Below are positions 1,872 to 56,473 of a DNA stretch of 64,000 nucleotides, piece after piece (the stretch's first letter is position 1; each line of letters opens with the position of its first letter). The notes under the pieces are model-generated. The model was not told where the DNA came from, made no database searches, and saw only the letters and a program-made list of their open reading frames with translations. A program made the translations under genes and the position numbers. Source of the DNA: Clostridiales bacterium (GTDB lineage Bacteria > Bacillota > Clostridia > Lachnospirales > Lachnospiraceae); assembly GCA_012519905.1 (NCBI GenBank), contig JAAYPG010000066.1, positions 1 through 64,000 on the forward strand, written 5' to 3'.

Positions 1872-2267
1872 ATGGCCATGTATGAGATGAAACCAGAATA
1901 TTATACTGGAATTAGTTTTGTTGATGAAGAACATAAAAAGCTATTTGAAATTGCAAATACTGTTTATGATCTACTGACTGATGAGTTCATACCTGATAAG
2001 TATGACTATATTATGGAAGTGGTAAATGAACTGAAAAGCTATGCAAAATATCATTTTGACCATGAGGAAGAATATATGAGCAGTATAAAGTATCGAAAAT
2101 TTTTATCTCATAAGGTTGCACATGATGGTTTTATAGAGGAAATAGAAAAATATGATGCAGAAATAATTGATGAGAACCAAAAGGAGTCTTTGTTGGAATT
2201 GCTAGAGTTTTTGACAACATGGCTAGTTGAGCATATTCTTAAGCAGGACAAGCAATTTGCAGAATAA
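1872..2267 (+). CDS. bacteriohemerythrin, copy 1 (all iron ligands present)
   Basis: This 131-residue single-domain protein has the seven ligands of the hemerythrin di-iron site in the expected spacing: H21 (DEEHKKLF), H61 and E65 (YHFDHEEEYM), H80 and H84 (SHKVAHDGF), H121 and D126 (VEHILKQD). Known bacteriohemerythrins bind O2 reversibly in the cytoplasm and may carry or scavenge it. The start is set by AAAGGAG about 8 bases before the ATG. A second, roughly three-quarters identical copy follows 122 bp downstream in the same direction, which indicates a tandem duplication. Function as an O2 binder is inferred from the family. Confidence 0.93.
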   Translation: MAMYEMKPEYYTGISFVDEEHKKLFEIANTVYDLLTDEFIPDKYDYIMEVVNELKSYAKYHFDHEEEYMSSIKYRKFLSHKVAHDGFIEEIEKYDAEIIDENQKESLLELLEFLTTWLVEHILKQDKQFAE

Positions 2268-2389
2268 GATAATATATTTAGACATTGCATAATTTGGACA
2301 GTTTAGAATAACCATAAAACAAGCTATTATATTGAACAAGTAAGGTTTAAATATATATATAAAACACACAAAGAAAAGGAGATGCTACT

Positions 2390-2785
2390 ATGGCTATGTA
2401 TGAGATGAAGCCGGAATATTATACCGGTATTAACTTTATTGATGAGGAACATAAAAAGCTATTTGAAATTGCTAATAGGGCATATGAATTATTGATGAAT
2501 GAGTTCATCCCAGATAAATACGATTACATTATGGAAGTTATTGATGAGCTTAAAGATTATACTAAATATCATTTCGACCATGAAGAGACCTATATGAATA
2601 ACATAAAATATAAAAGATTCCTATCACAAAAGGTTTCCCATGATGACTTTATTGAAAAGATTAATAGTTATAGCTCGGAAATTGTGGATGAACAACAGAG
2701 AGAATCCTTATTGGAATTACTTGAGTTTCTAACAACCTGGCTTGTAGAGCATATCTATAAGCAGGACAAGCTTATAGCTGAGTAA
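2390..2785 (+). CDS. bacteriohemerythrin, copy 2 (one His ligand replaced by Gln)
   Basis: Same length and start sequence (MAMYEMKPEYYTG) as the preceding gene. It keeps H21, H61, E65, H84, H121 and D126, but the first His of the H-x3-H ligand pair is Gln80 (FLSQKVSHDDF; codon caa at about 2627). Loss of a terminal iron ligand should change or weaken O2 binding, so this copy may have a different role from its neighbour. It has its own AAAGGAGATG-type ribosome binding site and is followed by a clear terminator. The 122-bp gap between the copies is AT-rich and could hold a promoter. Confidence 0.92.
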   Translation: MAMYEMKPEYYTGINFIDEEHKKLFEIANRAYELLMNEFIPDKYDYIMEVIDELKDYTKYHFDHEETYMNNIKYKRFLSQKVSHDDFIEKINSYSSEIVDEQQRESLLELLEFLTTWLVEHIYKQDKLIAE

Positions 2786-8871: not shown

Positions 8872-10503
8872 ATGGATAAGAAAAAATTAATATTTTACGG
8901 AGTTTCCATAGTTGTATCTGCTGTAGTTCTTGTGTATATAATCGTATTTGCTAGTAGAATCTTTAAAACAGAAGAAAATAATAATAATGAGATTGAAGCT
9001 AATATTCAGACTAATGACCATGATAATAATGATGAATCTGCTCCAGATAATTCTATTGATTTAGAAGATGAGGAGCCAGATCTAAGCATGCTAAAGGGTA
9101 ATGGTCACTCAAATAATGAAGATATAGATTTAGGTGATGAGGAGGATACTGAAAATATTGATAATGAAGAAGCAGATAAAGAAAGCGTATATGATGATGA
9201 GCTAGATAATGAAGCTGTTAGTCCCAAGCCTGAACAGCTTGTTGATGCAGAGGATCCCCAAGAAGAGGGTAGTTCAGGGGTTAGTATGGATGTAAGGGAT
9301 ATAAAGAATTCAAAGAATGAAACAGATGATATCACCTATGGTATAGATGTGGCAAAATGGCAAGGGGTTATAGACTGGGCTAAGGTTAAGGAGGCCGGTG
9401 TGGAATTTGCCATGATACGGGTGGGATATAGAACTCAGATTAGTGGAGAAATTACAGAGGACCCATATGCTAAATACAACTTACAGCAGGCGGGTAAGCA
9501 AGGTATCAAGCTTGGTGCCTATTTCTTTTCAACGGCTATTAATGAAAAGGAAGCCGAGGAAGAGGCTAGATGGGTTACTGATTTTATTGCACCCTATAAG
9601 ATTACCTATCCTGTAGCCTATAACTGTGAGGGCTTTACGGATCCAAATAATAGACAGTATAAGCTGACCAAGGAGGAAAGATCAAATCTAGCTACAGTAT
9701 TTCTTGATTTTGTTAAGGATAAGGGTTATTTGCCTATGTTCTATGCTTCAAAAAATGAGCTTGAGGACAACAGGGATTGGGATAAGGATCTATTAACAAA
9801 AAAATATAGGATATGGGTTGCACAATATCCTGATCAACTAGCGCTTAACTCCAAATCCTCGTATACCGACCTACATGAAATGTGGCAATATACCAATAAT
9901 GGAAAGGTACCTGGTATTAAGGGTTCGGTTGACCTAAATATTGCTTATTTTGGATTTGAAAAGGCTGCAGCTCCTAAGGATGATACTCCAGTAGACGAGG
10001 TTAGTGCTGATCCTTTAGCACTTATTAGTTTTAAGGAGGTAAATGAGACTGTGACTGCTAAGGAACTAACAAATCTTCGCGACATTCCTGGTACAGATAC
10101 GGGTAGCAAGGTGATTGAGGTTCTATATTATGGTGATCAGGCAAGGCGGACTGGGATAGGAGATAACGGATGGTCAAGAGTGGAATATAAGGGAAAAACC
10201 TTATATGCTGTAACTGATTATCTTACAACAAATCTAAACTACCAAGAGCAATTAAAGCCCAGTTTAGAGAATCCAGAAGCAGGAATAACATTTACAGAGG
10301 TGAATGAGAAAGTAACAGCCAAGATTGTAACTAATCTAAGATTGGTCCCTAGTACCGATAGTGACGATACCATTGTAGTAGCCTTAGAAAATGGACAGGT
10401 CGCACTAAGGACAGGTATAGGTAGTAATGGTTGGTCAAGAATAGAATATGAGGGTCAGCTTCTATATGCTGTAACTAATTATCTTGAGTTAATAGAAGAA
10501 TAG
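8872..10503 (+). CDS. membrane-anchored GH25 muramidase with two SH3-like domains
   Basis: The 543-residue protein has an N-terminal membrane anchor (residues about 6-28), a long acidic Asp/Glu/Asn-rich linker to about residue 150, a GH25 lysozyme domain (GIDVAKWQGVIDWAKVKEAG to YFGFEKAA, about 158-365) and two SH3b repeats beginning VNETVTAKELTNLR and VNEKVTAKIVTNLR. GH25 enzymes cut the MurNAc-GlcNAc bond of peptidoglycan. The catalytic Asp-x-Glu of the family reads Asn-Cys-Glu here (PVAYNCEGF), so Glu is kept but the Asp is not. The linker suggests that the enzyme reaches across the cell surface. Located after uppP, probably in one unit. Confidence 0.88.
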   Translation: MDKKKLIFYGVSIVVSAVVLVYIIVFASRIFKTEENNNNEIEANIQTNDHDNNDESAPDNSIDLEDEEPDLSMLKGNGHSNNEDIDLGDEEDTENIDNEEADKESVYDDELDNEAVSPKPEQLVDAEDPQEEGSSGVSMDVRDIKNSKNETDDITYGIDVAKWQGVIDWAKVKEAGVEFAMIRVGYRTQISGEITEDPYAKYNLQQAGKQGIKLGAYFFSTAINEKEAEEEARWVTDFIAPYKITYPVAYNCEGFTDPNNRQYKLTKEERSNLATVFLDFVKDKGYLPMFYASKNELEDNRDWDKDLLTKKYRIWVAQYPDQLALNSKSSYTDLHEMWQYTNNGKVPGIKGSVDLNIAYFGFEKAAAPKDDTPVDEVSADPLALISFKEVNETVTAKELTNLRDIPGTDTGSKVIEVLYYGDQARRTGIGDNGWSRVEYKGKTLYAVTDYLTTNLNYQEQLKPSLENPEAGITFTEVNEKVTAKIVTNLRLVPSTDSDDTIVVALENGQVALRTGIGSNGWSRIEYEGQLLYAVTNYLELIEE

Positions 10504-10565: not shown

Positions 10566-12296
10566 ATGGGACAGAAGATACAAAAAAGTACCCCTGAGAG
10601 AGAGCTTTGGGCACAATATGATGCACTGCAGCTGGGTTCCGGTTGGGATGAAAAGGATATTACTAAGCCACAGATACTTATAGAGGATGTATACGGTGAC
10701 AGCCATCCGGGAAGTGTGCATCTTAATCAATTGACTGAGCAGGCAAAATACGGTGTCTTTGAATGCGGAGCTTATCCAGCACATTTTCATGCTACAGATA
10801 TATGTGACGGTTGTGCCCAAGGGCATGATGGAATGAATTATATACTAGCTTCTAGGGAAGCTATATGCGATATGGTAGAGATACATGGATCTGCTACTCC
10901 TTGGGATGGACTGATACTTACCTCCTCCTGTGATAAATCAGTGCCAGCTCATCTGAAAGCAGCGGCAAGGCTTGATATTCCCACCATATTTATTCCTGGT
11001 GGAAGTATGAGACCCAGCCCCTATATGGCTACCTCTATGAAGGCAGGAGATATTTCCTTAAGACAAAAGAGAGAGGGGCAGATATCTGAGCAAGAGGTAA
11101 GAGATTATAAGATAACGGGCTGTCCTTCCTATGGTGCCTGTGCATTCTTAGGAACAGCCAGTACTATGCAATGTATGGCTGAAGCCTTGGGTTTAGCTCT
11201 ACCGGGTAGTGCTCTTGTACCTGCAACTATGAGAGATATCCTTCAGTATTCTAGAGATGCAGGAAGAAGGATTATGGATTTGGTAAATCGGGGCATAAAA
11301 GCAAGCATGATTATGACTAAAGAGGCCTTCTACAATGCATTTGTTATTCACAGTGCAATTGGTGGATCAACTAATGCTATGATACATATGCCTTCTATAG
11401 CTAGAGAGCTGGGAATTATATTAGATCCAGAAGAAATTGATGAAATTAATCATAAGATTCCTCATATGGTTAATGTAACACCTAGCGGTGAGTTTCCTAC
11501 GGAAGCCTTTTGGTTTGCTGGGGCTATACCGATGGTTCAGCTATATCTTAAGGACTATCTTAATCTAGATGTAATGACTGTAACAGGTAAGAGTCTGGGA
11601 GAAAACCTAGAGGATTTACAAAGGGAGAATTTCTTTGCCCGTAATTTGGGCTATCTAGCCAATTATGGCCTTACTAGAGAAGATTTAATAATACCCCCTG
11701 ATAAAGCCGATGAGATGGGTTCAATTGCTGTATTGAAGGGTAATATAGCTCCAGAGGGTTCTGTTGTAAAGTACTCAGCCTGTGATAAAAAACTATATAA
11801 GCATAGGGGGCCTGCCAGAGTATTTGATTCTGAGGAGGAGGCCCATAGGGCAGTAGTTAAAGGGGAAATTAATCCAGGTGATATGATAGTTATACGCTAT
11901 GAAGGACCAAGAGGTTCTGGTATGCCTGAGATGTTTATGACTACAGAGGCTATAGTGTGTGATCCGAGGCTAAATGGTACTGTGTCACTAATAACAGACG
12001 GAAGATTCTCTGGAGCAACCAGGGGGGCTGCCATCGGCCATATATCACCGGAGGCAGCAGTAGGTGGACCCTTAGCATATATTAGAGAAGGTGATATCAT
12101 TGAATATGATATCCAGGCCAGACAAATCAATTGTGTAGGTATTAAAGGTAGCTTAAAAGAGCCTGTAGAGATTGAAAAGATACTAAAAGAACGGGCCAAT
12201 AGGGAAGGAATTGCTCCTAGACCTGTAAGAAAAGGACTTTTAAAGCGTTATACATCCCTTGCTTTATCAGCCATGGAAGGTGCAGGTTACGAATAA
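10566..12296 (+). CDS. IlvD/Edd-family dehydratase, probably a sugar-acid (aldonate) dehydratase
   Basis: The 576-residue protein belongs to the Fe-S dehydratase superfamily that includes dihydroxy-acid and 6-phosphogluconate dehydratase. Visible cluster-region cysteines lie in [31 protein letters not shown] and [18 protein letters not shown]; further family motifs are [27 protein letters not shown] and [21 protein letters not shown]. The first motifs differ from true IlvD and the partner gene is a DapA-type aldolase, as in the YjhG/YjhH and YagF/YagE pairs for pentonate breakdown. I infer an aldonate such as xylonate or arabinonate as substrate; the exact acid cannot be read from the sequence. 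Start has GGGAGG 6 bases upstream. Confidence 0.85.
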
Positions 12297-12303
12297 GAGA
12301 ACT

Positions 12304-12393
12304 GTACCAGGTACAAAGACAGAGATGATCTGTACCAGGTACCAAAGTCAGTACCTGGTACAGACGAAAGGTACAAAAACCGGCACCCGGTAC
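12304..12393. repeat. GTACC-N-GGTAC palindrome cluster A
   Basis: Four copies of the 11-bp palindrome GTACCNGGTAC stand at 12304-12314, 12332-12342, 12351-12361 and (one mismatch, GCACCCGGTAC) 12383-12393, with an extra half site GGTAC at 12370. CTGTACCAGGTAC at 12330-12342 and its perfect inverse at 12351-12363 form a 13-bp stem with an 8-base loop. The cluster fills the gap between the dehydratase and aldolase genes. The same element recurs at 52802-52915 and 55115-55202. Confidence 0.9.
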
Positions 12394-52801: not shown

Positions 52802-52915
52802 GTACCGGGTACGGTACCAGAAGTAACAGTAATCAATACGGTACCAGGTACCAAAACTATCGGTACCTGAAAGTATAGATAAAAGGTACCTGGTACCGTT
52901 AACACACCTGGTACC
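52802..52915. repeat. GTACC-N-GGTAC palindrome cluster B
   Basis: Full palindromes stand at 52802-52812 (N=G), 52841-52851 (N=A) and 52886-52896 (N=T), with partial copies at 52814, 52863 and 52905-52914. ACGGTACCAGGTACC at 52838-52852 has a perfect 15-bp inverse at 52885-52899. The cluster fills the 6PGDH-G6PDH gap almost completely. Same element as at 12304-12393 and 55115-55202. Confidence 0.9.
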
Positions 52916-52957
52916 GGAATGACTGAAGCAACAGTACGCAGAAGGAGGAGAGTACTT

Positions 52958-55114: not shown

Positions 55115-55202
55115 GGGTTCGGTACCAGGTACAGAAACCAGTACCTGGTACCTGAACCCCTTGGTACCCGAACCCACAGAAACGAAGTTGTGTACCCGGT
55201 AC
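55115..55202. repeat. GTACC-N-GGTAC palindrome cluster C
   Basis: Palindromes at 55122-55132 (N=A), 55141-55151 (N=T) and 55192-55202 (N=C), with a half site at 55164. GGGTTCGGTACCAGGTAC (55115-55132) pairs with GTACCTGGTACCTGAACCC (55141-55159) with a single bulge, giving an 18-bp stem and an 8-base loop. The cluster lies between the cyclase and DUF438 genes. Confidence 0.9.
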
Positions 55203-55225: not shown

Positions 55226-56473
55226 ATGAGCGAACATATTAATAACAGAGAATATAGGCAGAAGGTTTTAAAAGAGCTTATTATGGAGCTTCATGATGGT
55301 AAGACTGTTGATGAAGTTAAGGAGAGATTCGAAAAATTAATCGAAGGTATATCTGCATCTGAAATTTCTATGATGGAAAATCAATTAATTATGGAAGGCT
55401 TACCGATTACTGAGGTTCAGAGACTCTGTGATGTCCATGCTGCTGTCTTTAAGGGCTCAATTGAGGAGATTCATATGCCTGATAATCCAGCTGATATACC
55501 AGGCCATCCTATACACACATTTAAGATGGAAAACCGTGCCCTTGAACGTTTAATGGACAAAACTATAAAGCCCTTACTTAATGAGCTGATAGAAAATGAT
55601 AATCAAAAGCTACGTGAAAATATTCTGACTGAATTTACTAAGCTATACGAGCTAGATAAGCATTATTTAAGAAAGGAAAATCTTTTGTTTCCATTCCTTG
55701 AAAAGTATGAGATAACTGGTCCGCCTCAGGTTATGTGGGGAGTGGATGATGAAATAAGAGAAGATATAAAGGATCTAATGGCTTCTTTAAGCAATTCAGA
55801 CCTTGATGCCAAGGAACTTTCAACTAAGGCACATGCTGCTATAGATCGTGTACATGAAATGATTTTTAAAGAAGAGAACATCTTGCTTCCTATGGCACAG
55901 GAGACTTTAAATGAAGATGAATGGCTTAAGATTGCTAAAGAAAGCCATGAGCTGGGTTATTGCCTCTATGAGCCGAAGAAAGAATGGAAACCAGCCCGAG
56001 TAAATGTTGAGGAAAAGAGTAAGAAATCACAATCTGCGAATACAGCTGATAGTAAAGAAGCACCAGCTGGCTATATCAAGTTTGAGACCGGGGTTCTTAC
56101 TCAAAAGGAAATAGAAGCAATGCTTAATGCTATGCCTGTAGATATAACCTTTGTAGATAAGGATGGAATCGTTAAGTACTTTTCAGAGGGTAGAGAGCGT
56201 ATCTTCCCAAGAACAAAGGCGGTTATTGGAAGAACAGTTGCCAACTGTCATCCACCGGGCAGTGTTCATATAGTAGAGAAAATAGTAGAGGATTTAATGT
56301 CCGGCAAGAAGGATAATGAGGATTTCTGGATTAAGATGGGTGACAAATATACTCTTATCCGTTATTTTGCTGTAAGAGATAAGGACGGTAGTTATTTAGG
56401 AACCCTAGAGTTTACACAAAATATTGCACCAATCAAGGCGATTGAGGGTGAAAAAAGACTATTATCTGAATAA
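55226..56473 (+). CDS. DUF438-hemerythrin-PAS domain protein
   Basis: The 415-residue protein has three parts: DUF438 (about 8-75; VLKELIMELHDGKTVDEVKERF), a hemerythrin-like HHE domain (about 85-235; HPIHTFKMENRALERLM, LDKHYLRKENLLFPFLEKY, HAAIDRVHEMIFKEENILLPM) and a C-terminal PAS domain (about 285-400; MLNAMPVDITFVDKDGIVKYFSEG, TVANCHPPGSVHIV). It may sense O2, NO or a haem/flavin ligand; no output domain is present. Start at ATG 55226 (MSEHINNREY) after AAAGGAGG. The upstream open frame runs through the GTACC repeat and is not coding. Confidence 0.88.
   Translation: MSEHINNREYRQKVLKELIMELHDGKTVDEVKERFEKLIEGISASEISMMENQLIMEGLPITEVQRLCDVHAAVFKGSIEEIHMPDNPADIPGHPIHTFKMENRALERLMDKTIKPLLNELIENDNQKLRENILTEFTKLYELDKHYLRKENLLFPFLEKYEITGPPQVMWGVDDEIREDIKDLMASLSNSDLDAKELSTKAHAAIDRVHEMIFKEENILLPMAQETLNEDEWLKIAKESHELGYCLYEPKKEWKPARVNVEEKSKKSQSANTADSKEAPAGYIKFETGVLTQKEIEAMLNAMPVDITFVDKDGIVKYFSEGRERIFPRTKAVIGRTVANCHPPGSVHIVEKIVEDLMSGKKDNEDFWIKMGDKYTLIRYFAVRDKDGSYLGTLEFTQNIAPIKAIEGEKRLLSE

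Follow-up and report, generated by a model that had tools for sequence, protein, structure and literature searches.

The closest described systems to the repeats analysed here are the REP/REPIN (BIME) elements of Escherichia coli and Pseudomonas with their RAYT (TnpA-REP) proteins, in which short intergenic palindromes occur in hundreds of copies as inverted pairs and arrays, the single-copy RAYT gene is flanked by its own repeats, and the repeat type is specific to the RAYT. Textbook REPs carry a GTAG or GTGG tag 5' of the hairpin. Untagged terminal repeats surround RAYT-related genes in the TIRYT/TIRtron elements, in which certain TIR families are self-complementary and occur in clusters at moderate abundance, and the accessible part of that account names no Bacillota case (Di Nocera 2013, PMC3733652). 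Among TnpA-Y1 proteins, subclass 2.1 is untagged, shows altered residues in the GTAG-reading region and has a C-terminal helix-turn-helix, and no REP-like sequences were reported near subclass 2.1 or 2.3 genes (Quentin 2018, PMC6006769). IS200/IS605 elements share the HUH-Y1 fold and hairpin recognition with RAYTs.

Here we compare with these systems a palindrome family from a 64-kb stretch of DNA (the window) of a Clostridiales bacterium genome, G000. We conclude that its clusters are very probably members of a REP family, often paired as REPINs, that is, non-autonomous mobile elements for whose spread the only RAYT of this genome, an IS200/IS605-like HUH-Y1 protein, is responsible.

Results

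Three palindrome clusters in the window

A pattern search of the window recovered 9 exact and 2 one-mismatch copies of the 11-letter palindrome GTACC-N-GGTAC (GTACCNGGTAC), 10 of these 11 sites lying in three clusters (A, B and C; Table 1). Shuffling the window gives an expectation of 0.5 sites at up to one mismatch, and a count of 11 was not attained in any of 100 shuffles. The remaining site, a one-mismatch copy within a coding gene (9907-9917), is probably a chance match. A preliminary description of this DNA had reported at least ten full or near-full copies in three clusters, each with a larger inverted repeat built from two copies and each directly behind a stop codon between same-strand genes, and our search bears out all of these points. 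The longer inverted repeats, which consist of two palindrome copies in every cluster, are 100% identical over 14 bp in cluster A (12329-12342/12351-12364), 15 bp in cluster B (52838-52852/52885-52899) and 12 bp in cluster C (55121-55132/55141-55152), and at all three clusters the flanking genes are co-oriented. From the preceding stop codons at 12296, 52797 and 55101 to the cluster starts the distance is 7, 4 and 20 nt, respectively. Elsewhere in the window (1872-2785), two hemerythrin-like genes stand in tandem and encode 131-aa products that are highly alike.

CRISPR arrays consist of direct repeats 24-48 bp long that are separated by unique spacers of regular size. We rejected this class on anatomy, as the preliminary description had, the present repeats being 11-bp palindromes with spacers of 1 or 11 nt or of variable length.

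Table 1. Palindrome copies in clusters A, B and C (window coordinates)
Feature	Position	Evidence
Palindrome GTACCAGGTAC, cluster A copy 1, 7 nt past ilvD-like stop codon	12304-12314	pattern search
Palindrome GTACCAGGTAC, left arm of cluster A inverted pair	12332-12342	folds: 14-bp stem, 8-nt loop
Palindrome GTACCTGGTAC, right arm of cluster A inverted pair	12351-12361	pattern search, repeat analysis, folding
Near copy GCACCCGGTAC, 1 mismatch, end of cluster A	12383-12393	pattern search
Palindrome GTACCGGGTAC, cluster B copy 1, 4 nt past gnd-like stop codon	52802-52812	pattern search
Partial copy CGGTACCAG, cluster B	52812-52820	repeat family D2, inverted pair I4
Palindrome GTACCAGGTAC, left arm of 15-bp inverted pair, cluster B	52841-52851	pattern search, repeat analysis
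Partial copy CGGTACCTGAA, cluster B	52861-52871	repeat analysis
Palindrome GTACCTGGTAC, right arm of 15-bp inverted pair, cluster B	52886-52896	pattern search, repeat analysis
Degenerate copy ACCTGGTACCG, end of cluster B	52906-52916	repeat analysis
Palindrome GTACCAGGTAC, left arm of cluster C inverted pair, 20 nt past cyclase-like stop codon	55122-55132	pattern search, repeat analysis
Palindrome GTACCTGGTAC, right arm of cluster C inverted pair	55141-55151	pattern search, repeat analysis, relative G032
Partial copy TGGTACCCGAACCC, cluster C	55162-55175	repeat analysis
Palindrome GTACCCGGTAC, end of cluster C, 5' of hemerythrin-domain gene ATG at 55226	55192-55202	pattern search

A family dispersed over the genome

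Genome G000 (2.59 Mb, 197 contigs) holds 192 GTACC-N-GGTAC sites, against 2 for the reversed pattern that served as control and about 1 predicted from base composition, so that the genome-wide count proposed in the preliminary description came out far above chance. The sites, 150 with C or G and 42 with A or T at the middle position, are scattered over dozens of contigs. Three contigs (C43, C44 and C194) end in or beside palindromes, so that these repeats seem to be where the assembly breaks.

We examined 147 of the 192 sites in context, corresponding to 61 clusters on 41 stretches. The commonest spacings among them were 12 nt (30 times), which leaves one base between boxes, and 22 nt (22 times), which leaves an 11-nt spacer whose sequences are weakly similar. 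Adjacent A/T-centred inverted pairs, 17-51 nt apart (mostly at least 19), had the A-centre ahead of the T-centre in 11 of 11 cases, and C/G-centred boxes were typically bordered by CT on the left (positions -2,-1) and by AG on the right. Folded as single-stranded DNA, the clusters form stems of 10-15 bp, with z-scores of -4 to -9 relative to shuffled sequences.

As for strand and operon position, which the preliminary description had also proposed to check, an automatic ORF call placed 46 of the 61 sampled clusters clearly between ORFs, in 31 co-directional, 10 convergent and 5 divergent gaps. The others fell at contig ends (5) or inside ORFs (10), the latter class including ORF-start artefacts, at least cluster C, where the ATG at 55226 is the likely true start. 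Many sampled clusters start 2-15 nt past a stop codon. A published account describes the same preference of REPs for gaps 3' of genes, unidirectional or convergent (PMC3733652).

This geometry and placement bear on the proposal that the clusters are binding-site arrays for a regulator of double-stranded DNA or a nucleoid protein, with KpnI-like GGTACC/GTACCNGGTAC operators. The dyads are indeed perfect, and the preferred spacings correspond to roughly one and two helical turns; however, the arrays lie mainly past stop codons and not at promoters (divergent gaps account for 5 of 61), the genes beside them are unrelated, the palindrome sequence changes with the RAYT and flanks the RAYT gene, and relatives have the same junction without arrays (see below). 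We therefore regard such arrays as highly improbable and as not needed to explain the data.

Presence and absence at conserved gene junctions

In the relatives examined, the genes gnd-zwf-cyclase-hemerythrin-degV follow one another in this order, except that G006 yielded no match for the hemerythrin gene. Downstream of gnd, the gap holds three GTACC boxes in G000, two in G032, one each of GTACC and GTGCC in G013, and a GTGTC/GTACC mixture in G018; in G004 the gap comprises 14 nt only, and at this place no recognisable palindrome boxes were found in the more distant genus members. The cyclase-hemerythrin gap contains boxes in G000, G013 and G032, the last with an A..T pair at the same 19-nt spacing as in cluster C of the window, and it is bare in G008 and G004 (16 and 34 nt). 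The comparison with relatives envisaged in the preliminary description thus revealed arrays that are present, absent or of another variant at both junctions.

Since arrays are absent in relatives with the same gene order, they are not required for operon structure, and their gain or loss without operon reordering argues against an essential operon-processing role. The preliminary description would have settled for a local expansion if the motif were no more frequent than chance and the clusters were absent from close relatives without effect on operon structure. The second part was found, with gene order undisturbed, but the first was not, the motif being hugely over-represented genome-wide, and this combination fits mobile repeats and not local expansion.

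The same junctions weigh on the suggestion that the arrays act as RNA hairpins and were selected for the termination, stabilisation or processing of polycistronic mRNA. Strong predicted RNA folds, a position just past stop codons between co-directional genes, and the reported effect of E. coli REPs on mRNA stability and transcription termination (PMC6006769) speak for it. However, a terminator scan of gnd-zwf-cyclase-hemerythrin on the coding strand identified no REP hairpin with a T-run, an Rfam search gave no match, and most relatives lack arrays in the same operon with gene order intact. Selected operon-processing hairpins are thus very unlikely and are unnecessary as an explanation of the data; an effect on mRNA is possible, at most as a side effect of insertion.

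A single RAYT gene flanked by the palindrome

Exactly one Y1_Tnp protein is encoded in G000, on another contig than the window (C43, locus L046, 5.2 kb), so that the earlier statement that no transposase is seen holds for the window and not for the genome. With 87.9 bits this protein exceeds the cut-off (80) of the NCBIfam REP-associated tyrosine transposase model NF047646, and PF01797 (Y1_Tnp) is its only Pfam domain. The best structural match of its predicted structure, a model of modest confidence (pLDDT 64), is the E. coli RAYT with its REP hairpin (4er8, E 1.5e-8); a phmmer search of PDB with the single protein gave no match, and a profile of 8 RAYT sequences matched 4er8. The HUH (NHVHLQ) and Y (YIHLNP) residues are invariant among 8 RAYT orthologs, so that the protein has the HUH and single catalytic Y...NP core of RAYTs.

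GTACC palindromes lie on both sides of the RAYT gene (L016 1199-1232 and 2032-2065), as an inverted pair upstream and as two boxes downstream, one of which overlaps the RAYT stop codon; the gene is thus flanked by its own genome-wide repeat. RAYT orthologs adjoin purC in G000, G004, G013, G032, G016 and G022, and this shared place shows that the gene was inherited in place and does not hop. Unlike IS200/IS605 elements, the G000 RAYT gene is single-copy, fixed behind purC and itself not mobile, with a housekeeping-like vertical inheritance.

The expected start site is occupied by an Ile codon in all 8 RAYTs of this clade (ATT in 3, ATA in 4, ATC in 1), behind a GGAGG-like ribosome site (L046 about 1498-1500; equivalent place in L047-L053), which sets the G000 RAYT apart from textbook REP systems; no in-frame ATG, GTG or TTG was found ahead of the conserved core in G000, G018 and G001. 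Similar Ile-codon start sites were seen in the RAYTs of Anaerocolumna (ATA) and Priestia koreensis (ATC), and most other RAYT relatives examined start with ATG, TTG or GTG. The same genus also carries a second, longer RAYT-like family (L054, L055, L058, L059 and L060, in G012, G028 and G004), 261 aa where complete, with a TTG start in L054, L055 and L058, and bordered by repeats around GTGTCAAGGGGACGG / CCGTCCCCTTGTCAC.

Comparison with tagged and untagged systems

High copy number, intergenic position, palindromic sequence and inverted pairs are all shared with REPs and REPINs, so that the REP-like nature considered in the preliminary description is well supported, now with a cognate transposase. 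In contrast to textbook REPs, the G000 palindromes lack the GTAG/GTGG tag, the left flank being mostly CT at -2,-1 and not GTRG, and the box, at only 11 bp (13 bp with GG..CC), is very short. In the alignment to 4er8, the G000 RAYT keeps Q95 of the E. coli GTAG-contact residues and has other residues in place of W94, E100, H101 and R104 (residue numbers of the GTAG-reading region from PMC6006769). The CT border recalls the dinucleotide CT at which E. coli TnpA-REP cleaves (PMC8266576), a resemblance only.

With TnpA-Y1 subclass 2.1 the G000 system shares the missing tag and the altered GTAG-reading region; in contrast to that subclass, it has plain REP-like arrays, and a Pfam search of the G000 RAYT found Y1_Tnp alone and no C-terminal helix-turn-helix. 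As in TIRYT/TIRtron elements, a RAYT-like gene is flanked by untagged repeats, and the palindromes recall the self-complementary TIR families. However, GTACC-N-GGTAC does not match the TIRYT consensus GGGGWSAS (PMC3733652); repeats of this consensus do not flank the RAYT in G000, and within the genus only relative G001 has a matching sequence, GGGGTCAG. The G000-type family also follows its RAYT across a genus, unlike TIRYT/TIRtron elements as described there. By most criteria the system is REP-RAYT, hence of a known kind, but with a palindrome that lacks the usual GTAG tag.

Palindrome variants follow the RAYT across the genus

The variants that flank the RAYT orthologs differ between genomes: GTACC-N-GGTAC in G000 and G004, a GTACC/GTGCC mixture in G013, GTGCC-N-GGCAC in G032 and G016, a GTGTCAGGCAC-like form (GTGTC/GGCAC) in G018 and G022, and GGGGTCAGGCAC (GGGGTC) in G001. 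Genome counts follow a related pattern. GTACC occurs 192 times in G000, 182 in G004, 100 in G008, 84 in G013 and 68 in G032, and at most 8 times elsewhere in the genus; GTGCC counts are 66 in G013, 48 in G032, 16 in G016 and 13 in G019; GTGTCAGGCAC reaches 46 in G018 and 13-27 in five others; and 33 copies of GGGGTCAGGCAC are present in G001, where this form flanks the RAYT, as opposed to no more than 1 in every other genome. The RAYTs of GTACC type group as one clade in the RAYT tree (SH-aLRT 97). Because G032 holds 68 GTACC copies and its own RAYT is flanked by GTGCC copies, the match between variant and RAYT is not one-to-one. With the scored variants summed, 8 of 8 genomes with an ortholog have at least 17 palindromes, as opposed to 3 of 26 RAYT-negative genomes with at least 15 (Fisher p 9e-6, without phylogeny correction, the RAYT-positive genomes being mostly close relatives). 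The palindrome design evolves together with its transposase.

Palindromes without a detected ortholog of this RAYT were found in G008 (100 copies, in a genome that is 78% complete), G014 and G019 (25 each), which may reflect genome incompleteness or relics after transposase loss. Such copies, together with the tandem arrays of period 12 or 22, could also be attributed to passive repeat expansion by slippage or gene conversion, or to mobilisation in trans by some unrelated element, the RAYT playing no part. Yet the spread over dozens of contigs, the presence or absence at a conserved junction among relatives and the variant-RAYT match are all unexpected from local slippage, and we find this explanation barely credible compared with REPs spread by their RAYT.

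Related palindromes in other Bacillota

The degenerate 13-mer GGKRYCNGRYMCC exceeds its reversed control in many, but not all, Bacillota genomes with related RAYTs, for example in Alkalihalobacterium elongatum (189 vs 3), Salipaludibacillus aurantiacus (108 vs 5), Anaerocolumna sp. (91 vs 3), Pontibacillus chungwhensis (76 vs 2) and Sutcliffiella deserti (64 vs 0). The Pontibacillus chungwhensis genome (that of L126) also contains regular GGTGTCTGRCACC-like boxes with a 37-nt period (G075:C31:88653-88850). No published RAYT-REP family of Bacillota or Clostridia was found in the open-access literature, subscription papers being outside the scope of this search, and absence is therefore unproven.

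Discussion

How a RAYT might spread such untagged palindromes can be pictured by analogy with the systems described above. Where the DNA is single-stranded, for instance on the lagging-strand template, a pair of neighbouring GTACC-N-GGTAC boxes would form a hairpin of 10-15 bp, which the RAYT would recognise, cutting and rejoining the strand beside it. New copies, made by this protein, would land mostly at tolerated sites just past stop codons. What the sequences establish directly is the genome-wide family with its array geometry and hairpin potential, the palindromes on either side of the RAYT gene, the variant match across the genus and the presence or absence of arrays at conserved junctions; movement of the palindromes is what we infer.

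We see evenly balanced chances for a broader proposal, namely that untagged micro-REPs (GG-KRY-C-N-G-RYM-CC) form a large and largely undescribed class across Bacillota, spread by a RAYT branch whose relatives reportedly have no REPs; that the repeat alphabet shifts stepwise with the vertically inherited transposase; and that in one lineage AUU, AUA or AUC start codons hold the transposase level down. Our data suggest that untagged REPs were overlooked in Bacillota because automatic searches demanded a GTRG tag, and the work on RAYT/REP systems that we surveyed concerns mainly GTAG-tagged repeats, chiefly of Proteobacteria.

Few bacterial examples illustrate as clearly as the RAYT/REP systems how a domesticated transposase can be linked to a population of tiny repeats. 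Here, an orthologous single-copy RAYT, mostly at the same chromosomal place, meets a different palindrome in related species, and REP recognition is therefore directly testable by swaps of one or two bases.
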